Shown: piece by piece, positions 2,242-11,330 of the stretch
Position numbering within the stretch: the stretch's first letter is position 1
How the letters are laid out: every line of letters begins with the position of its first letter
The notes under the pieces: generated by a model
Seen by the model: only the letters and a program-made list of their open reading frames with translations
The model's database searches: none
Told to the model about the DNA's origin: nothing
Translations under genes and position numbers: made by a program
Origin: a bacterium
GTDB lineage: Bacteria > ARS69
Length of the DNA: 11,330 nt
Reading direction: 5' to 3'
NCBI GenBank assembly: GCA_025774865.1
Contig: JALGZO010000199.1
Location: forward strand, 1 to 11,330

Positions 2242-3273
2242 TCACTGGCGGTAGCGCGACTTGACGCGTCCCCAACTGGCCGCGTCGAGCGACGCCTCCG
2301 CGACCGTTGGCCTGCAGGGTGGGCAGTTCCCCGTGGGCGACAGGTATCCGATCGTCCCACAGGGTCCGTTGAGCGCTGGAGAGTCAGCGCAGACACCGAA
2401 GTCGAGCGTGCCCGGATCGCAAATCAGCGGGTTCACCATCTCGTTCCCGTCAATACCCAAGACGTCGCCACAGACACCCGCAAACGCGCCGAACTCCGGC
2501 TCCCAGATGATGTTGCAGGTGATCTCCGGTTCCTGTTCTCCGGCGCAAAAGATCGCCGGTCCGCCATGAGAAAACGAGACGATGTTGTGACTGAACGTGA
2601 AATCGGAGCCGACGGAGTAGAGATCCACGGCCTCCACCCCGAAGGGCACCGTGTTCGCGTGGAAGGTGTTGCTCCGGATGATGGGCGTGCCACCCGAGAT
2701 CGAGATGGTTCCCCCGCCACCTTCCGTATTGTTGGCGGTGAACACGTTGTTCTCCACGATCACCGTCGACGACTGCAGGTAGACGCCGGCGCCGACCCCC
2801 CCCGAGCACAGCCTGAAGATGTTGTTCTTGATCGTGCCGCCCGAGACGAACGCGCCGATAGCTCCACCGAAACTGGTCTCGTTGGCCCCCCACCGAAACG
2901 TAAAGCCGTCGATCACGGTGGAGGCAGAACACTCGGAGAGCGTGACGGCGGGGTCGCTCCCGGAGGATCCGCGGATGAGCGTGAACTCCGGCCCTTCGGC
3001 CGAGACGAGCGTGACGCTCGACTTCATGACGAAGCGCCTCCCGTACTCCCCGGGCCAAACCATGACCGTGTCCCCGGGGAAGACCCCGAGATCCGTCATG
3101 GCGCTGTAGATTCCCTGGCCCGGGCCGCCGCCGGGGGTCCCATCGTGGAAGTTACAGCCTCCCGGGCAGTCGTTTGCATCGAGACCGACCCGCCATGTGC
3201 CAGCCGACGCGGGTGCCGTGGCAAGCCACGCCGTAAGCGTAGCGGCTGTCAGGATTCCGGCGAATCTCGTCAT
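2242..3273 (-). CDS. Secreted right-handed parallel beta-helix protein, 343 aa
   Basis: Exported protein with a Sec signal peptide (about 1-24, cleavage after 'PASA'). The segment at 50-75 ('IYSAMTDLGVFPGDTVMVWPGEY') and the following repeats of 'Φ-x-N-N-x-F' type ('IKNNIF', 'VENNVF', 'IRSNTF', 'FSHNIV') are the rungs of a pectate-lyase-like parallel beta-helix (NosD/PbH1 style). No polysaccharide-lyase active site can be assigned. There are 12 Cys, concentrated after residue 240, including 'ICDPGTLDFGVCADSPA', a segment I associate with Eisenbacteria-like exported proteins. The protein ends with 'SWGRVKSRYRQ' after a variable Ala-rich linker, which could be a sorting tail (inference). The ATG at 3273 is preceded by GGGGAG about 10 nt upstream and by a good promoter at 3318-3346. 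It is probably the first gene of a transcript with the 222-aa TPR lipoprotein. Likely location is the cell surface or outside the cell; the ligand is unknown. Confidence 0.9.
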   Translation of the reverse strand: MTRFAGILTAATLTAWLATAPASAGTWRVGLDANDCPGGCNFHDGTPGGGPGQGIYSAMTDLGVFPGDTVMVWPGEYGRRFVMKSSVTLVSAEGPEFTLIRGSSGSDPAVTLSECSASTVIDGFTFRWGANETSFGGAIGAFVSGGTIKNNIFRLCSGGVGAGVYLQSSTVIVENNVFTANNTEGGGGTISISGGTPIIRSNTFHANTVPFGVEAVDLYSVGSDFTFSHNIVSFSHGGPAIFCAGEQEPEITCNIIWEPEFGAFAGVCGDVLGIDGNEMVNPLICDPGTLDFGVCADSPALNGPCGTIGYLSPTGNCPPCRPTVAEASLDAASWGRVKSRYRQ

Positions 3274-3356: not shown

Positions 3357-3385
3357 TTGCGAGGGTGCGGGAGCTCTCCTATCCT
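3357..3385 (+). promoter_or_regulatory. Promoter of the glycosyltransferase-pab operon, leaderless layout
   Basis: TTGCGA (3357-3362, 4 of 6) and TATCCT (3380-3385, 4 of 6) are separated by exactly 17 nt. Seven nt after the -10 box lies GTG at 3393, in frame with the glycosyltransferase. Transcription would therefore begin at or next to the start codon, giving a leaderless mRNA. No Shine-Dalgarno sequence is present at proper spacing before either the GTG or the alternative TTG at 3357, which agrees with this reading. Confidence 0.5.
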
Positions 3386-3392
3386 CCTCGCT

Positions 3393-5507
3393 GTGCCCGC
3401 CCCGCCCACCGCTCGCTCCGCCCTCTCTCGAGCGGACCTCATCGGCCTGTTCACGGTCGCTTTGGGGCTGCGCGTCGCCCTCATCTGGACGACGCGGGAT
3501 GACCCGATCTTTGCCGTGCCCATGCTCGACGCCGAGTACGCGGTCGAGTGGGCGCGGAGCGTTCGAGCGGGAGACGTGTTCGGGAGCCCGGAGGGAACGG
3601 CCTACTTCCGGACGCCACTCTACGCCTGGCTCCTGGCCCTGGCGGCACTCCTGCCGGGAGACGATCTCGCCGGGGCACGGCTCCTGCAAGCCGGGCTCGG
3701 GGCGACGGCGGCAGCGCTGCTGGCGTCGATCGCGGGCCGCCGCTTCGGGCGTGCCGCCGGCCTCGTCACGGGCGGGCTGGCGGTGGCCTCGTGGCCGCTC
3801 CTCTTCTTCGCCCGTGAGCTTCTGATTGCGTCCCTGTCGGTCTTTTGGGGGGCGCTCCTGCTCCGGGTGCAGGACGGCGCGGGTGAGACGTCCAGAGCGC
3901 GACGCTGGCTGGCCATCGGCGCGATCGTCGGGCTCGGCGCGGCGACCCGGCCGAACTTCCTGATCCTCGCGCCCGTGGCGATCGTGCTCGCGTTCATGAG
4001 GGCCGGAAAGCCTCGACGGTGGGCCGCCACCGCGCTGGTGGCGGGCGGCGCCCTCCTCGTGGTGGCGCCGATCACGGTGCGGAATCGGATCGTCTCCGGC
4101 GAGTGGGTCCTCCTCAGCTATCAGGGCGGCCTCAACCTCTGGATCGGCAACAACCCGGACGCCGACGGGATGAGCGCGCGACTTCCCGGATTCTCGTCGT
4201 GGCGTAACGAGGACGTGGAGGCCCAGCTCGCCCGCGAAGCCGGACGGGCGGTCGGACCGTCGGAGCAGGACGCGTATTTCCGGCGCCAGGCAATCGCGTT
4301 CTTCTCCGCTGAGCCTCTCCGCGCCGCCGCACTGCTCGCGCGCAAGACCTATCTGCTCGCCCAGGGATACGAGATTCGCAACAACCGCGACCTCTACGCG
4401 ATGCGCGAGCGCGACGTGATTCTCGGCCTGCCCGGCCCCGACTTCGGCTGGATCGGACCGCTCGCACTGGTCGGATTCTTTCTCACGTGGCGCCGGCGCG
4501 CCGAGCTCGCGCACCTGTGGGGCTTCGCGGCCGCGATGAGCGCGAGTATCGTTCTCTTCTTCGTGTGCTCACGCTATCGCCTTCCGCTCTGGCCGCCGAT
4601 GCTCGTCTACTCGGGGGTGACCGCCGCGACGCTCTTCGCCCCGACCACGCCGCTTCGCCCCCGGGTCACCGTCGCGGTGCTCCTCGTGGGGTGCGTGGTC
4701 CTCGCGCGGGTCGACTTCCTCGGAATCCGCAGTCCGGATCGCTCACAGGTTCACTACCAGTACGGCAACGTGTACGCACGCGTGGGCCGCGATGCCGACG
4801 CCGAGCGCGAGTTTCGCGAAGCCCTCGACCTCGCCCCGACCTTCGCCGAGGCCCGGCATCATCTCGGCGCGCTCCTGCTGCGCCAGGGGCGGGTGGCAGA
4901 GGCCCTGCCCGAGCTGAAGAGCGCCACCGAGGCATTGCCGCTCTCCTTTCGCGCGCGACGCTCGCTCGCGGAGGCGCTCACCGCCACCGGCGCATTCGAA
5001 GCCGCTGTCGCGGCTCGGCGAGAGATTGCCCGGCTCTCCGCCGGCGACCCGCGTGACCTGCTTCTGCTCGCCGACGCGCTCGGAGCGTCCCGCCGCTACG
5101 AGGAGGCCTGGGCCCTGTACCGGGAGCTCCGATCGGCCGGGATGGAGGACCCGTTCCTGGATCTCAACGGCGGCCAGACGGCGCTGGCGCTGGGGCACTC
5201 CGACGAGGGACGGCGGTGGATCGAGCGCGCGATCGCGCATCCCGAGACCCGCGTGAGCGCCTACGAGCAGCTTGGACGCTACCTCCTCGCGAATCGGCGA
5301 GCGGAGGAGGCGCTCGGGCTCGCGAACGAAGCGATCGCCTTCGTCCCCGGCCGCCCGGAGCTGCACCGGCTACGCGCATACGCGCGACACGCGGTCGCCG
5401 ATACCGCCGGAGCCATCGCGGATTTCGAGACCGTGCTCGCACTCGACCCGAACGACGTGACGTCTCGGCGGCGCCTCGCCATACTGCGTGAGGCAGGGGG
5501 TTCGTAG
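3393..5507 (+). CDS. GT39/ArnT-like membrane glycosyltransferase with C-terminal TPR domain, 704 aa
   Basis: Integral membrane GT-C glycosyltransferase, expected to transfer a sugar from a polyprenyl-phosphate donor on the periplasmic face. Residues 1 to about 440 contain 10-12 hydrophobic spans. The first large loop has 'PMLDAEYAVEWA' (Asp46 the likely catalytic acid), followed by 'FRTPLYAW'. Other family-type motifs are 'AATRPN', 'LNLWIGNNPDADG' and 'SRYRLP'. Residues about 455-704 form a TPR domain of about seven units ('AEREFREALDLAPTFAEARHH', 'AIADFETVLALDPND'). I start at GTG 3393, with a promoter ending 7 nt upstream. The longer start at TTG 3357 would use the -35 box as a start codon and adds 12 residues. 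The gene ends 2 nt before pabB, so they share a transcript. Sugar and acceptor are unknown. The architecture recalls eukaryotic TMTC O-mannosyltransferases; lipid A or polysaccharide modification is an alternative. Confidence 0.85.
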   Translation: MPAPPTARSALSRADLIGLFTVALGLRVALIWTTRDDPIFAVPMLDAEYAVEWARSVRAGDVFGSPEGTAYFRTPLYAWLLALAALLPGDDLAGARLLQAGLGATAAALLASIAGRRFGRAAGLVTGGLAVASWPLLFFARELLIASLSVFWGALLLRVQDGAGETSRARRWLAIGAIVGLGAATRPNFLILAPVAIVLAFMRAGKPRRWAATALVAGGALLVVAPITVRNRIVSGEWVLLSYQGGLNLWIGNNPDADGMSARLPGFSSWRNEDVEAQLAREAGRAVGPSEQDAYFRRQAIAFFSAEPLRAAALLARKTYLLAQGYEIRNNRDLYAMRERDVILGLPGPDFGWIGPLALVGFFLTWRRRAELAHLWGFAAAMSASIVLFFVCSRYRLPLWPPMLVYSGVTAATLFAPTTPLRPRVTVAVLLVGCVVLARVDFLGIRSPDRSQVHYQYGNVYARVGRDADAEREFREALDLAPTFAEARHHLGALLLRQGRVAEALPELKSATEALPLSFRARRSLAEALTATGAFEAAVAARREIARLSAGDPRDLLLLADALGASRRYEEAWALYRELRSAGMEDPFLDLNGGQTALALGHSDEGRRWIERAIAHPETRVSAYEQLGRYLLANRRAEEALGLANEAIAFVPGRPELHRLRAYARHAVADTAGAIADFETVLALDPNDVTSRRRLAILREAGGS

Positions 5508-5509
5508 CC

Positions 5510-6877
5510 GTGCGTATTCCGCGCCGTCATCGATTTCGAGTCTCGGCCGCCCCGGAAGAGCTCTTCCGGCGCTTGCCGCGCGGGCACCGCTTCCGGTTCG
5601 CCGCGGGAGCCCGGTCGACCACCGTCTTCGGCGCCGAGCCGGTTCTCATCGTCGAGTCCGACGCGCCCGCCGCGCCTCCCTTCGAGGAGTTGCGAAACGT
5701 CCTCCCGCGCATCGGCACCGTCGGCGGCGGCGCGTTCCCGGGAGGCGCCGTCGGCTTCATCACGTACGAGGCGGGTTACGCGATGGAAGGCCTCGACGCG
5801 GGGACTGCCGAGCTCGGGCCTGCGGCGTGGTTCGGCGTTTACGACACGTTCGCCGTGTGGCACCCGGAAGACGAGGCGGTCGAGGTCGTGTCGTGGGGGC
5901 TGACCTCGCGCGGCGACTTCGACGAGACGGTGGCCCTCCGCCGCGCGGGCGAGCTCGAGGAGCACCTCCGCGCCCGCAGCGTCGGCCCGAGGCGGGACAG
6001 CGGCATCACGACGGCATCCCCGCCGAGCGTGCGCGCGAGTCTCACACGCGCGGAGCACGAAGTGGGCGTCTCCGCGATCCTCGACGCGATCGAGCGCGGC
6101 GACATCTATCAGGGCAACCTCACCGTCCGCTTCGACGTCGAGTGGACCGGCGACAGCATCGGGCTGTTCGAAAAGCTGATTCGCGACAACCCCGCCCCGC
6201 ACGCGGCGTTCCTCGAGGTGGACGACTTCACCATCATTTCCTGTTCGCCCGAACGACTGCTCGCCGCGCGCGGCCGCGACCTCGAGTCGCGTCCGATCAA
6301 GGGGACCTCTCTCCGCGACTCTGACCCCGCCGTCGACCGCGTGCTCGCACAGCAGCTGCTCGAATCTCCCAAGGATCGCGCGGAGCTCTTGATGATTACC
6401 GACCTCGTACGGAACGATCTCGGCAAGGTATGCGCTCCGGGATCGGTCCGGGTGCCGCGCCTGCGAGAGCTGGAGTCGTTCCCTTACGTCCATCACCTGG
6501 TATCGACCGTGCGCGGGCGGCTCCCCGCGGGCCGCGACTCCCTCGACGCTCTCGAGGGGTTGTTTCCGGCCGGCTCGATCATCGGGTGCCCGAAGCGTCG
6601 GGCGATGGAGATCCTCCGCGAGCTGGAGGGCGCCCCGCGCGGGGCCTACACGGGGACCGTGGGGTGGGTCGGCTTCGATCGATCGTGCGACTTCAACGTC
6701 GCGATCCGGACCGGCCGACTCCGCGATGGGGTATTCTCGTTCGGAGCCGGGGGCGGGGTCGTCGTCGATTCCGACCCGGGCCGGGAGTGGGACGAACTCG
6801 GGTGGAAGGCGCAGGCAATCCTGAGCGCGCTGGGGACCGAGCTCGAGCCGGCGACGCCCACCGGGAGCGACACGTGA
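5510..6877 (+). CDS. pabB: Aminodeoxychorismate synthase component I (PabB), 455 aa
   Basis: Chorismate-binding enzyme that converts chorismate and ammonia to 4-amino-4-deoxychorismate, the first committed step of p-aminobenzoate and folate synthesis. The C-terminal catalytic domain (about 180-445) shows, in order, 'GDIYQGNLT' (197-205), 'SCSPERLL' (244-251), 'PIKGT' (262-266), 'DLVRNDLGKV' (298-307), 'FPAGSIIGCPKRRAM' (352-366) and 'GAGGGVVVDSDPGREW' (412-427). The Lys in PIKGT (Lys264) is the residue used by PabB, where anthranilate synthase TrpE normally has Ala; this favours PabB. The N-terminal part has the family's 'GFITYEAGY'. The start is GTG 5510, 2 nt after the upstream stop codon, with AGGGGG about 8 nt before it. 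The stop overlaps the next start as GTGA. The glutaminase subunit PabA is not encoded here. TrpE or isochorismate synthase are unlikely alternatives. Confidence 0.92.
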   Translation: MRIPRRHRFRVSAAPEELFRRLPRGHRFRFAAGARSTTVFGAEPVLIVESDAPAAPPFEELRNVLPRIGTVGGGAFPGGAVGFITYEAGYAMEGLDAGTAELGPAAWFGVYDTFAVWHPEDEAVEVVSWGLTSRGDFDETVALRRAGELEEHLRARSVGPRRDSGITTASPPSVRASLTRAEHEVGVSAILDAIERGDIYQGNLTVRFDVEWTGDSIGLFEKLIRDNPAPHAAFLEVDDFTIISCSPERLLAARGRDLESRPIKGTSLRDSDPAVDRVLAQQLLESPKDRAELLMITDLVRNDLGKVCAPGSVRVPRLRELESFPYVHHLVSTVRGRLPAGRDSLDALEGLFPAGSIIGCPKRRAMEILRELEGAPRGAYTGTVGWVGFDRSCDFNVAIRTGRLRDGVFSFGAGGGVVVDSDPGREWDELGWKAQAILSALGTELEPATPTGSDT

Positions 6878-7764
6878 GCGATCAGGCCCGCAAGGTCTGG
6901 TGGAACGGCGACATCGTCCCCGCCGACGAGGCGCGCGTCTCGGTGTTCGACGCGGGCTTCCTCTACGGCGACGGCATCTACGAGACGATGCGCTCCTACC
7001 GTGGTCGCGTCTTCGCCGTCGCCCGGCACCTCAAGAGGCTGGCGCACAGCGCGGCGCGGATCGATCTCGACCTGCCCGGGGCCGAGGAGCTCCGTAAGGC
7101 GATCGAGAACACGGTTGAAGCGAACGGCGGCGGCGACAAGATCGTACGGCTCACCGTGACGCGCGGCGCGCTGGAGCGTCGTCTCGACCTCTCGACGTCG
7201 GGCGCAGCGTCGGTGCTCGTGACGACCGACCCGATCGATCGGAAGGAAGACGACCGCCGTCGCCACGGGATTCGGGTGATCTACTCCAAGTTCCTGCGAC
7301 CGTCCGCGTACCCACTCGTCGGCGTCAAATCGACGAACTACCAGATATCTCTCTTCGCGCGGAACGAAGCGCGGGCGGCCGGAGCTCAGGAGGTCCTCAT
7401 CCCGAACGAGTCGGGGGAAATCGTCGAGGGCGCCGCTTCCAATGTCTTCATCGTGGAGGGCAACCGGCTGGTCACTCCGCCGCTCTCATCGGGAATCCTC
7501 GGGGGGATCACACGTGAGCTCGTGATGGAGCTCGCGGCGGCCCGCGGCGTCCCCGTCGAAGAATCGACGTTGGCGCGAGAACGCATCGAGACGACGGACG
7601 AGCTCCTTCTTTCCAGCACGACGATCCGGATCGCGCCGGCGATCGAGATCGAAGACCGTCGGATCGGAACCGGTCGCCCCGGCCCCCTGACGCTTCAGCT
7701 CCTGGACGACTACTTGGCCGCGGTCCGCGAGGACACCCGGACCTCGTCGGGCTCTCAGCGGTAG
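6874..7764 (+). CDS. pabC: Class IV PLP enzyme, probable aminodeoxychorismate lyase (PabC), 296 aa
   Basis: Fold-type IV PLP enzyme. Landmarks are 'DAGFLYGDGIYETMR' (26-40), 'RHLKRLAHSA' (51-60), 'GVKSTNYQ' with Lys152 as the PLP Schiff-base lysine, 'EGAASNVFIV' (185-194) with the cofactor-binding Glu185, and 'SGILGGITRELV' (206-217). Length and domain order are normal. The frame is open back to 6430, but residues before GTG 6874 are antisense-like and overlap pabB; GTG 6874 overlaps the pabB stop by 4 nt and begins the conserved 'VWWNGD' strand. Translational coupling to pabB argues for PabC, which splits aminodeoxychorismate into p-aminobenzoate and pyruvate. By sequence alone, a branched-chain or D-amino acid aminotransferase remains possible, since the three share all these motifs. 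The last codons overlap the comM stop on the opposite strand. Confidence 0.72.
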   Translation: MSDQARKVWWNGDIVPADEARVSVFDAGFLYGDGIYETMRSYRGRVFAVARHLKRLAHSAARIDLDLPGAEELRKAIENTVEANGGGDKIVRLTVTRGALERRLDLSTSGAASVLVTTDPIDRKEDDRRRHGIRVIYSKFLRPSAYPLVGVKSTNYQISLFARNEARAAGAQEVLIPNESGEIVEGAASNVFIVEGNRLVTPPLSSGILGGITRELVMELAAARGVPVEESTLARERIETTDELLLSSTTIRIAPAIEIEDRRIGTGRPGPLTLQLLDDYLAAVREDTRTSSGSQR

Positions 7765-7769
7765 AGCCT
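7749..7769. terminator. Hairpin spanning both convergent stop codons, possible weak bidirectional terminator
   Basis: GGCTCT (7750-7755) pairs with AGAGCC (7763-7768) around a 7-nt loop; a G-T pair at 7749/7769 extends the stem to 7 bp. The pabC stop (7762-7764) and the comM stop (7755-7757) both lie inside it. No T tract follows on either strand, so intrinsic termination would be weak at best. No other terminator is visible at this convergent junction. Confidence 0.3.
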
Positions 7770-9305
7770 CGCATCCGCGAACCGGGCCGGTGAATCGACC
7801 GACGCATCCGAGAGGATCCGATACCGCGCCGCCTCCGCGAGATGCGCGAGCTTGATGTTCGGGCTCGCGTCCAGATCTGCGATCGTCCGTGCAACTCGCA
7901 GCACGCGATGAATCGCGCGCGCGGAGAGACCCCGACGCCGTAGCGCGCTGGCGAGAAGCGCTCTCCCGCCAGGCGGCAAGGTGCACGCGCGCTTCAAGCG
8001 CCGCCCGTCGAGCTCCGCATTCCGGACGCCCCCGCCGGCCCTTCGGACCTGGAAACCCCGCGCTTGCCCGACCCGCTCGCGCACGACCGCCGATTCCTCC
8101 GCCACCTCGTCCCCCGTGATGCGATCGACGTCGACGGGCCCCACCCATACGTGAAGGTCGATTCGATCGAGAAGGGGCCCGGAAACACGCGCCCGGTAGC
8201 GCCGGACGTCCGTCGAGGTGCAGGTACACGGCTTGCCCGCGTTGCCCGCGTTTCCGCAGGAACACGGGTTCATCGACCCGATGAGCTGGAAGCGCGCGGG
8301 GAAAGTCGCGGACCGGCCGGAGCGTACGACGGCGACCGATCCGTCCTCGATCGGCTGGCGCAACGACTCGAGCGCCGAACGGCGAAACTCGGGCAGTTCG
8401 TCGAGGAACAAGACCCCGCGGTGCGCGAGACTGATCTCGCCCGGCCGCGGGGGATTCCCACCGCCCACCAGGCCGACATCGGACACGGTGTGATGCGGGG
8501 CCCGAAACGGGGCTCGCGTGAGCGGAAGACCGCGCGCGCCGAGGGTTCCCGCCACGGAGTGGATCATCGTGGCCTCGAGGGTTTCGGCTTTCGTGAGAGG
8601 CGGGAGAATCGACGGGAGGCGCCGAGCGAGCATCGTCTTGCCAGTCCCCGGCGGCCCGATCAGCAGCAGGTTGTGACCGCCGGCCGCGGCGATCTCGAGG
8701 GCGCGCCGGGGCGTGGCTTGCCCCTTCACTTCGGCGAGATCGGCTGCGTCGCCGCTGGCCTCCGCCGGGCGGCACGATCGACCGACGGCGAAGGACGACG
8801 CGGAGCGCACCACCGCCACCGCATCTCGAAGAGTCGACGGCGCGGCCACGCGTAACCCTTCCACCGAGAGCGCCTCCTCGCGATTCGCGGCCGGCACGAC
8901 GATTCCTTTCGCCCGATCCCGGGCGGCGAGCGCCGCCACGAGCACGCCGCGAACCGGGCGCACATGCCCGTCGAGTGACAGCTCACCGATGAAGACGAGA
9001 TCACGCAGACTCTTCACATCCGCCTGACCCGAGGCGGCGAGCAGGGCCAGCGCGATCGGCAGATCGAATCCGCTTCCCTCCTTCGGTAACTCGGCGGGAG
9101 CGAGGTTCAAGGTGATTCGTGCACTCGGCATCTCGAATGCGGAGTTCCGGATCGCGGCGTGCACGCGTTCCTTGGACTCGCGTACGGATGCGTCGGGTAA
9201 TCCGACGATCTGCGTGTGCGGCAGGCCGGAAACGACGTCGGCTTCTACGTGAACCGTGTGAGCTTCGACGCCGCAGAGGGAGACGGTGATGACACTGGCC
9301 GGCAT
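7755..9305 (-). CDS. comM: ComM/YifB family Mg-chelatase-like AAA+ ATPase, 516 aa
   Basis: AAA+ ATPase of the ComM (YifB) family. The characterised Vibrio ComM is a hexameric helicase that drives branch migration when transformed DNA is integrated. The N-terminal Lon-like domain starts with 'VEADVVSGLPHTQIVGLPDA' and includes 'GSGFDLPIALALL' (77-89). The AAA+ core has Walker A 'GPPGTGKT' (217-224), Walker B 'GVLFLDEL' (297-304) and 'GSMNPCSCG' (343-351). Paired Cys at 348/350 and 360/362 resemble the family's putative metal site. A C-terminal Mg-chelatase domain ends with 'GLSARAIHRVLRVARTIADLD'. The length is normal for the family (about 500-516). The ATG at 9305 is preceded by a strong GGGGAGG, itself buried in a hairpin. 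It follows the TPR lipoprotein by 71 nt in the rnhB-yraN series. Its presence alone does not prove natural competence, as many non-competent bacteria carry it. Confidence 0.93.
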   Translation of the reverse strand: MPASVITVSLCGVEAHTVHVEADVVSGLPHTQIVGLPDASVRESKERVHAAIRNSAFEMPSARITLNLAPAELPKEGSGFDLPIALALLAASGQADVKSLRDLVFIGELSLDGHVRPVRGVLVAALAARDRAKGIVVPAANREEALSVEGLRVAAPSTLRDAVAVVRSASSFAVGRSCRPAEASGDAADLAEVKGQATPRRALEIAAAGGHNLLLIGPPGTGKTMLARRLPSILPPLTKAETLEATMIHSVAGTLGARGLPLTRAPFRAPHHTVSDVGLVGGGNPPRPGEISLAHRGVLFLDELPEFRRSALESLRQPIEDGSVAVVRSGRSATFPARFQLIGSMNPCSCGNAGNAGKPCTCTSTDVRRYRARVSGPLLDRIDLHVWVGPVDVDRITGDEVAEESAVVRERVGQARGFQVRRAGGGVRNAELDGRRLKRACTLPPGGRALLASALRRRGLSARAIHRVLRVARTIADLDASPNIKLAHLAEAARYRILSDASVDSPARFADARLYR

Positions 9306-9376: not shown

Positions 9377-10258
9377 TCAGCCCGCGGCCTTCTTGTTGGG
9401 CGTGTGACTGACCTGCTCGAAGTACTGATGAACCATCTTGAACATGGGGCTGTCTTCTTCGCCCTCCAGAAGGTCGAGAACTTGTTCGAACCACTCGATC
9501 GCTTCCACGTGCCGGCCCTGGCTCGCGAGCGACACCCCGAGGCTGTACAGACCGTCGACGTAATCCGGATCGATCCCTACGGACGCTCGGTATTCGTTCT
9601 CGGCGAGCCGCAGGTTCTGCTCGAGGCTCGACTGCATGTACGCGTTGCCGAGGAGAACCCGGACCTCCTTGAGACTCGGCTCCAGCTCCAGCGCCCGAGT
9701 GAGCGCTTCGATGGCGGCGTCGAGGTTGCCTTGGTCGTAGAAGAGCCGCCCGAGATCGATGAAACCGAGCGTATATTGATTGTCGTACTCGACGCACTTC
9801 TTGTACTCCTCGATCGCCTGGTCGGTCCGTCCGGACTTCTCGTAGATCTTGCCCAGGTTGTAGCGGGCGGGCACGAAAGCGCCCTCCTCCCGGACGGCCG
9901 CCGCAAAGGAACTCTCCGCTTCCTTTACCTTCCCCTGCATCTGGTAGCAGTTGCCGAGGTTGAAGTGCGCTTCCGCGTAGCCGGGATCCGACTCGAGGGC
10001 GAGGAGATACTGCTCCGCCGCCTCATCGAGCCGCTTCACCTTGTAGTGGGCCAGTCCCAGCAGGTTGTACGCCGGGGCGTCATCCGGATCTTCGGCCAGC
10101 ATCGAATTGGCCAGGGCGATCGCGTCGTCGACGCGTCCCGCGACCACCAGGTCGTAGCCCTCCTGAACGCGGGGATCGAGCTTGCGACTACACGCCGCGA
10201 GCGCGGTGATTCCCAGCAAGAGAAAGACGAGGCTACGAAGCGTTGGCAGGTACATCAT
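9377..10258 (-). CDS. TPR-repeat lipoprotein, 293 aa
   Basis: Envelope lipoprotein with TPRs. The signal peptide ends in lipobox LAAC, with Cys23 as the lipidated residue. About seven TPR units run from residue 30 to 263, for example 'AAEQYLLALESDPGYAEAHFNLGNCY', 'AIEEYKKCVEYDN' and 'AIEALTRALELEPS'. A short polar tail follows. Two ATGs are adjacent (10258 and 10255). AAGGA lies 8 nt before the first and GGAGG 3 nt before the second, so the exact start is uncertain by one codon. The gene begins inside the 3' end of the 47-aa membrane-protein gene, in another frame with a 26-nt overlap, which suggests translational coupling. It sits between yraN and comM, which are often neighbours. The protein is related in design, not near-identical, to the two TPR lipoproteins at 211-2210. 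Its function is unknown; scaffold or assembly factor is the general family role. Confidence 0.92.
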   Translation of the reverse strand: MMYLPTLRSLVFLLLGITALAACSRKLDPRVQEGYDLVVAGRVDDAIALANSMLAEDPDDAPAYNLLGLAHYKVKRLDEAAEQYLLALESDPGYAEAHFNLGNCYQMQGKVKEAESSFAAAVREEGAFVPARYNLGKIYEKSGRTDQAIEEYKKCVEYDNQYTLGFIDLGRLFYDQGNLDAAIEALTRALELEPSLKEVRVLLGNAYMQSSLEQNLRLAENEYRASVGIDPDYVDGLYSLGVSLASQGRHVEAIEWFEQVLDLLEGEEDSPMFKMVHQYFEQVSHTPNKKAAG

Positions 10259-10376
10259 CCTCCGATTCCTTCCGGCGTGAACGGGCGTGATCCACGAGCA
10301 GAATACCGGCGACCGCGAGAATGACCAGCGCGTTGAACGCGAGAATACCCAGGAAGATGATGAAGAGGATCTTCAC
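10233..10376 (-). CDS. Small single-span membrane protein, 47 aa
   Basis: Short gene that is easy to miss. It starts at GTG 10376, 6 nt after the yraN stop codon, with AAGGA immediately upstream (2-nt spacer) and GGGGAG 11 nt upstream. Residues 3 to about 28 are one continuous hydrophobic helix ('ILFIIFLGILAF', 'ALVILAVAGILLV'). A basic patch follows ('HARSRRKE', 30-37), then an acidic tail ending 'DDVPANAS'. The charge pattern predicts N-out/C-in, with the basic stretch at the cytoplasmic face. It ends at TAG 10233, overlapping the first 26 nt of the TPR lipoprotein gene. The hydrophobic-then-charged composition and tight fit between two real genes argue that it is translated. No lipobox and no known family recognised. 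It could be a partner or assembly factor for the overlapping lipoprotein; that is inference. Confidence 0.68.
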   Translation of the reverse strand: MKILFIIFLGILAFNALVILAVAGILLVDHARSRRKESEDDVPANAS

Positions 10377-10382
10377 CGTCCT

Positions 10383-10760
10383 TCAGACTCCCCAGCGATC
10401 GGGCGCCTCGAACGCGGCGCGGATGTGACGCACTTCCACTCCCGGACCCGCCCCCCCGACCGTCACGACGTCGAATCGACAACCTCCGCGCGGCGATCCG
10501 CGCCGGCTCAGCCACACCGCGGCGGCCCGCCCCACACGCCGGCGCTTGTCCGCCGAGACCGCTTCCGCGGCTTCGTGCGATCCGGCACGCCGGGCCTTCA
10601 CCTCGACGAATACTTGGACGTCGCCGTCTCGCAGCACGAGATCGATCTCGCCGCCGGCCAGCCGCACGTTGCGCGCCTGCAGTTGCCAGCCGAGCGACTC
10701 GGTCAAGTACCGCGCGGCGCGATCTTCGGCCCATCTGCCTCGAGCGGGCGAAGTCCTCAC
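10383..10760 (-). CDS. yraN: YraN/UPF0102 family nuclease-like protein, 125 aa
   Basis: Small UPF0102 (YraN) protein with a restriction-endonuclease-like fold; its biochemical role is poorly defined. Signatures are 'GRWAEDRAARYL' (8-19), 'RNVRLAGGEIDLV' (30-42) and 'VFVEVKARR' (50-58). Glu38, Asp40, Glu53 and Lys55 form the PD-(D/E)xK-like acidic and lysine set. I choose GTG 10760, which overlaps the rnhB stop as GTGA and puts the conserved 'GxxAE' block at residue 8, as is usual for the family. A longer start at 10823 would overlap rnhB by 67 nt and add 21 Gly/Pro/Ser-rich residues. The rnhB-yraN order is common in bacteria. The 47-aa gene begins 6 nt after the stop, so all are likely on one transcript. 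Confidence 0.9.
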   Translation of the reverse strand: MRTSPARGRWAEDRAARYLTESLGWQLQARNVRLAGGEIDLVLRDGDVQVFVEVKARRAGSHEAAEAVSADKRRRVGRAAAVWLSRRGSPRGGCRFDVVTVGGAGPGVEVRHIRAAFEAPDRWGV

Positions 10761-11330
10761 AGGAACAGGTCCGCCGACAGAGCCTCCCGGACCGGCGCGA
10801 AGCTCAAGCGATGATGAACGCAAGGTCCCGACCGCGCCAGGGCCTCGCGGTGCTCTGGCGTGCCGTATCCCATGTTGCGATCGAACCCATAGCGAGGGTA
10901 GCGCGTGGCGAGCTTCGTCATGAGTCGATCACGCACGACCTTGGCCACGATCGAGGCGGCACCGATGCAGGCGCACTTTCCATCGCCCTTGACGATCGCG
11001 GTGTGCGACACGGGTAGTCCCTCGACGGGGAGGCCGTCGATCAGCAGGTGCGCGGGACAGCGCGCCAGGTGCGCGACCGCACGCGCCATGGCCGCGTGCG
11101 ACGCCCTCAGGATGTTCAGACGATCCACTTGTCCGCTCGTCGCCCAACCGATCCCGATGTCCTCCGCCTCCGTGAGGAGGATCCGGAAGACCTCCTCCCG
11201 CTCCTCGGCGTCCAGTTGCTTCGAGTCCGCGATGCCGTCCACCCGACGTTCCGGCGGAAGGACGACGGCGGCCGCGACTACCGGTCCCGCGAGCGGACCG
11301 CGGCCGACCTCGTCGACCCCGGCGACCGGC
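10757..11330 (-). CDS. rnhB: Ribonuclease HII, 5' end outside the window (190 aa visible)
   Basis: Type 2 ribonuclease H, which cuts RNA in RNA-DNA hybrids and starts removal of single ribonucleotides from DNA. The frame is open to the window edge, and the visible part begins at the catalytic motif 'GVDEVGRGPLAGP', so only about ten N-terminal residues should be missing. Counting visible residues, the acidic tetrad is Asp6 and Glu7 (DEVGRG), Asp98 ('LLIDG') and Asp116 ('VKGDGK'). The spacing matches E. coli Asp16, Glu17, Asp108 and Asp126. Other family blocks are 'ADSKQL', 'IGAASIVAKVVRD' and 'YPRYGFDRNMGYGTPEH'. A 161-aa version starting at GTG 11242 is rejected because it lacks the first catalytic motif. 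It is the most upstream gene seen of the minus-strand series and overlaps yraN by 4 nt. The gene is apparently intact within the window. Confidence 0.95.
   Translation of the reverse strand, partial: PVAGVDEVGRGPLAGPVVAAAVVLPPERRVDGIADSKQLDAEEREEVFRILLTEAEDIGIGWATSGQVDRLNILRASHAAMARAVAHLARCPAHLLIDGLPVEGLPVSHTAIVKGDGKCACIGAASIVAKVVRDRLMTKLATRYPRYGFDRNMGYGTPEHREALARSGPCVHHRLSFAPVREALSADLFL

Follow-up and report, generated by a model that had tools for sequence, protein, structure and literature searches.

A frame of 47 codons lying between yraN and the gene for a TPR lipoprotein is almost certainly a genuine, conserved protein-coding gene, as judged by sequence comparison, and it is small enough that gene finders could miss it. 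Its product represents a previously undescribed family, one found together with the TPR lipoprotein gene after rnhB and yraN. The gene lies near one end of the window, by which we mean the whole 11,330-nt stretch of contig JALGZO010000199.1 that was analyzed. An earlier note on this DNA had proposed it as an overlooked small membrane protein gene; that it is a gene is borne out by homologs in 12 genomes, a kept position, and purifying selection. The features of this region are the following.

10757..11329, minus strand: rnhB (ribonuclease HII, PF01351), continuing past the window edge
10383..10760, minus strand: yraN (UPF0102, PF02021), probable GTG start at 10760, stop TGA at 10385..10383
10377..10382, minus strand: 6-nt gap AGGACG from the yraN stop to the small gene, in which AGGA is a possible, close-set ribosome-binding site
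10376..10233, minus strand: small membrane protein gene, GTG start, 47 aa, VKILFIIFLGILAFNALVILAVAGILLVDHARSRRKESEDDVPANAS, then stop
9377..10258, minus strand: TPR lipoprotein gene, 293 aa, lipobox LAAC, predicted regular TPR superhelix of about 8 repeats
7755..9305, minus strand: comM/yifB-like Mg-chelatase family gene, 71 nt after the lipoprotein gene

The longest yraN frame begins at 10823, but the GTG at 10760 is the probable start and overlaps the rnhB stop by 4 nt (GTGA). At the other end of yraN, the GTG-started small frame is exactly where the earlier note had placed it, 6 nt past the stop. The AAGGA said to precede it is present but poorly spaced, with only 2 nt between it and the GTG; an alternative ribosome-binding site is the GGGGAG about 10 nt away, within the final codons of yraN. 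The proposed 26-nt overlap with the lipoprotein start is found for the ATG at 10258 and becomes 23 nt if counted from the second lipoprotein ATG.

Coding potential was compared over the first 36 codons in a gap-free alignment of twelve sequences. The claimed frame contains a stop in none of the 12 genomes, whereas every other frame has stops in 2 to 12 of them. Its mean BLOSUM62 score per codon is 2.17, the best of the six frames (the other five reach at most 0.96), compared with 0.44 ± 0.21 (s.d.) and a maximum of 0.96 in 300 column-shuffled controls. Differences at codon positions 1, 2, and 3 stand at 0.47, 0.30, and 0.63; hydrophobic composition is part of the cause of the low second-position value, but it cannot account for the invariance of Asn15 and Asp29 or the near-invariance of Arg34-Arg35. 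Pairwise dN/dS values of 0.17/0.98 (G138-G387), 0.35/0.99 (G000-G004), 0.23/0.64 (G001-G004), and 0.35/1.65 (G386-G388) correspond to a ratio of about 0.2 to 0.4. The earlier note had named stops or frameshifts in relatives, or a lack of synonymous excess, as grounds for giving up the gene, and on all of these the gene passed. Other long frames do overlap the region on both strands, as a chance frame in GC-rich DNA or the shadow of a gene in another frame might, but only the claimed frame is open in all twelve genomes with top conservation, the rest carrying stops or scoring much lower, so that we regard the chance of such an artifact as negligible.

In a search of 60 genomes, strong homologs turned up in each of the four further genomes from the family to which the window belongs, all of them representing different genera. 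The window's phylum, which comprises only five genomes in the genome set used, thus has a homolog in 5/5 genomes and five genera, with E values from 1e-9 to 1e-25. A profile built from these five small proteins returned two weaker matches, G275 and G138, both at the identical place in the order rnhB, yraN, small gene, TPR lipoprotein gene. In the second phylum, to which these two belong, seven of eight genomes carry a homolog; the eighth, 83% complete, has neither the small gene nor a yraN that could be detected, which makes it probable that its assembly lacks the locus. Homologs are 42 to 54 aa long across the 12 genomes. Each locus was read, and the order yraN, small gene, TPR lipoprotein gene is found in all twelve, wherever the contig reaches. 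The check that the earlier note had suggested, looking in relatives for the same hydrophobic small frame between yraN and a TPR lipoprotein gene, therefore recovered it. A collection scan with a four-sequence alignment matched two named records, which are G001 and G004; they were deposited as the Gemmatimonadetes/Gemmatimonadota assemblies HKST-UBA01 and DHS20C21, but the genome set used treats them as a small phylum of their own.

Outside these two groups, about 105 readable yraN loci of other genomes contained no comparable small single-helix gene, in a survey of 110 loci of which several were unjudgeable (contig too short or yraN missed by the script). Profile searches of 386 genomes likewise gave no further syntenic match, both surveys being samples of phyla rather than exhaustive. 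Hydrophobic frames at two yraN loci, L090 (94 aa) and L138 (108 aa), are longer and unrelated. Among weak profile matches elsewhere (E 0.003 to 0.05) whose locus could be inspected, only those in G138 and G275 adjoin yraN. At L095 and L106, yraN is followed directly by another TPR-type lipoprotein gene (BamD-like by eye) with no small gene, and at L096, L097, and L110, it is followed by a gene for a TPR-like protein without a signal.

Sequence searches of Pfam, NCBIfam, PHROG, and PDB with the small protein yielded only sub-cut-off, composition-type matches, and a literature search returned nothing on a small gene beside yraN. The envelope stress protein PspB (TIGR02976) was rejected at 12.5 bits versus 51.7. 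Phage holin-like small membrane proteins were also set aside, as tblastn against phages and plasmids gave no match to the small protein and PHROG matches were weak (best E 0.0025). A family that has no match in these libraries is retained across two phyla, both of them little known and represented here mostly by fragmented assemblies. Such tiny genes can come to light when the stretch that follows a core operon gene is compared from phylum to phylum.

The small protein has one long hydrophobic stretch (maximum 19-residue Kyte-Doolittle value, 2.93), and AlphaFold2 models it as a single helix over residues 2 to 40, with pLDDT above 90 across the first 30 residues. The transmembrane part covers roughly residues 3 to 28, followed by a basic patch (R32-K36) and a variable tail. 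The invariant residues are Asn15, within the membrane helix, and Asp29, where that helix ends, with the basic cluster that includes Arg34-Arg35 coming after. The hydrophobic helix, basic patch, and acidic tail described previously are all there in the window copy, but the last is not a family trait, since net tail charge ranges from -6 to +5 among members and the tail is acidic in most of the window's phylum and not in most of the second.

In all 12 members, three or four Lys/Arg residues follow the helix, versus none or one before it. By the positive-inside rule, basic residues C-terminal of the helix indicate that the C terminus should be cytoplasmic, and all 12 have the two marks of the single-pass, cytoplasmic-C-terminus class (one hydrophobic helix, positive excess on its C-terminal side), an assignment that is a prediction. 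We infer that the small protein crosses the inner membrane once, with a short N terminus in the periplasm and a basic tail in the cytoplasm. The hosts encode Omp85 in 5/5 genomes and LpxC in 4/5, which indicates that they are diderm, with an outer membrane. Within the helix, the conserved positions 11, 12, 15, 18, 19, 22, 26, and 29 share one face, at a borderline p of 0.05. Helix oligomerization is known to be influenced by a lone Asn within the membrane core (PMC6824673); together with the conservation of the Asn15 face, this effect suggests that the helix contacts a second one, either a copy of itself or part of a larger membrane protein.

The lipoprotein is orthologous in both phyla (20 to 51% identity to the window copy), and its lipobox Cys is invariant in all 10 full lipoproteins. 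A fold search with it returned generic TPR superhelices only. The type IV pilus pilotins PilW/PilF and Tgl are likewise short exported TPR lipoproteins, which the window lipoprotein matches generically; it scores 88.5 of 154 and 89.5 of 225 bits, far below the curated cut-offs for PilW/Tgl pilotins, and its gene neighborhood differs from theirs. In E. coli, yraN adjoins lpoA, which encodes a TPR-containing envelope lipoprotein; the order there is the opposite one, the lipoprotein architecture is another, and no small membrane gene lies between. TPR proteins with lipoprotein-type signal sequences are encoded by three genes in 11 kb of the window, all on the minus strand (211-1392, about 1542-2200, and 9377-10258), the middle one assigned by eye.

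The small gene and the lipoprotein gene appear to form one inherited two-gene unit. Outside the window's phylum, at least nine of the genomes surveyed have comM as the very next gene after yraN. Members of the window's phylum carry the pair between yraN and comM, and the second phylum keeps the two genes of the pair together as well, although comM is not next to them there. In all 12 genomes, the lipoprotein start lies between -29 and +7 nt from the end of the small gene; five of them have overlaps of 17 to 29 nt, outside the usual -4/-1 optimum for coupling. In E. coli, subunits of a single complex are enriched 4.5-fold among gene pairs with a spacing of -8 to +10 nt (PMC10666635), a spacing class that covers just part of the distances found here.

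The earlier note had suggested that translating the small gene opens the lipoprotein start. This tight spacing is compatible with coupling, but no RNA structure was found that would need unmasking: the 201 nt around the junction are a little less stably folded than shuffled versions of them (z = +0.85), with no unusual structure. Because the junction shows no excess of structure and the lipoprotein ATG is served by a Shine-Dalgarno sequence of its own, GGAGG, simple reinitiation is likelier than unmasking. A further suggestion, that the two products act as a membrane peptide paired with a lipid-anchored scaffold, fares unevenly. The gene partnership is conserved, but direct contact is doubtful, as the tail is predicted to be cytoplasmic and only 2 to 3 residues would reach into the periplasm, the expected location of the TPR domain. 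Direct contact would be possible only at the membrane region or via a third protein.

We favor a reading in which an envelope complex includes both the lipoprotein and the small protein, the latter as a small helper subunit in the inner membrane; taken as a whole, role included, we think this statement has about as much chance of being right as wrong. It would involve four steps. The small protein would insert with its N terminus out and its C terminus in; it would be made in step with the lipoprotein through termination-reinitiation; its conserved face around Asn15 would pack against another membrane helix, its own or that of a larger membrane protein; and it would then serve the complex as a helper subunit, while the TPR lipoprotein would bind its partners on the periplasmic side, a third partner being postulated. 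Certainty falls in this order, from topology through coupled production and helix-face packing to the helper-subunit role. Small single-pass helper subunits of some 30 to 50 aa, with one transmembrane helix and easily missed in annotation, include AcrZ, KdpF, and CydX. The small protein resembles them in size and in having a single helix, but it has no Pfam or NCBIfam match to them, and its operon contains no transporter or oxidase gene.

That the membrane is predicted to separate the tail from the TPR domain would also fit a small protein that serves another inner-membrane system and is functionally unrelated to the lipoprotein. Adjacency would then be inherited operon order, much as in the whole rplS-rnhB-yraN block, an old and stable operon whose genes are unrelated in function. 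Against this stands the arrangement around comM, which can follow yraN directly, and yet the pair stays together in both phyla. On balance, we consider a purely inherited adjacency unlikely, though well worth keeping in mind.

Another layout to be considered is that of LapA and LapB. LapA is longer than the protein described here, with two membrane segments plus a LapA domain, and LapB has an inner-membrane anchor and cytoplasmic TPRs. In E. coli, lapA (yciS), likewise a small inner-membrane protein gene, lies immediately upstream of the TPR protein gene lapB (yciM), in one operon with coupled translation (PMC7730581). The pair in the window could by analogy be a regulator that tunes envelope lipid or LPS synthesis, for example by steering a membrane protease. 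The shared layout, a small membrane protein gene set tightly against a downstream TPR gene and possibly coupled to it in translation, speaks for it, as do the occurrence of LpxC and a weak LapA_dom (PF06305) match in one member (E 0.011). That best match, however, scores 16 bits against a 28-bit cut-off, a level that unrelated membrane families reach as well, and the small protein has only one segment; the window TPR protein scores 31 bits against 363 for LapB and is an exported lipoprotein, with a lipobox Cys instead of an inner-membrane anchor. Membership in LapA/LapB fails on these sub-cut-off scores and on the lipoprotein nature of the TPR protein, and we give a regulator of this type a low probability. 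By layout, LapA/LapB is the nearest known case, but likeness of layout does not establish likeness of function.

A bolder reading, to which we attach a similarly small probability, is that the small protein and the TPR lipoprotein could be the inner- and outer-membrane ends of an undescribed trans-envelope complex of a few diderm phyla, the Asn15 face docking on a postulated inner-membrane core. Finally, the tight spacing to the lipoprotein gene in all 12 genomes is what one would see if the frame were a leader cistron, translated merely to bring ribosomes to the lipoprotein start and yielding a functionless peptide. A pure leader would keep its frame only, whereas residues conserved between phyla run along the helix, well clear of the overlap, with Asn15 and Asp29 invariant and the dN/dS ratio as low as given above, which makes a mere leader very improbable.

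Whatever its precise role, a small gene kept beside one lipoprotein gene offers a tangible way into the organization of envelope TPR lipoproteins in these bacteria. At five loci of the second phylum (L201, L203, L205, L206, and L207), the lipoprotein gene is closely followed on the opposite strand by an apparent ABC-2 permease gene, convergent to it and adjoined by its ATPase gene where the contig reaches. Elsewhere in the window, 2242-3273 (minus strand) encodes a secreted protein whose repeats resemble, by eye, a right-handed parallel beta-helix, and 3357-5507 (plus strand) encodes a membrane glycosyltransferase-TPR fusion. At 5510-7764 (plus strand), a pabB-like gene for a chorismate-binding enzyme precedes an aminotransferase-like frame that by eye resembles pabC/ilvE.
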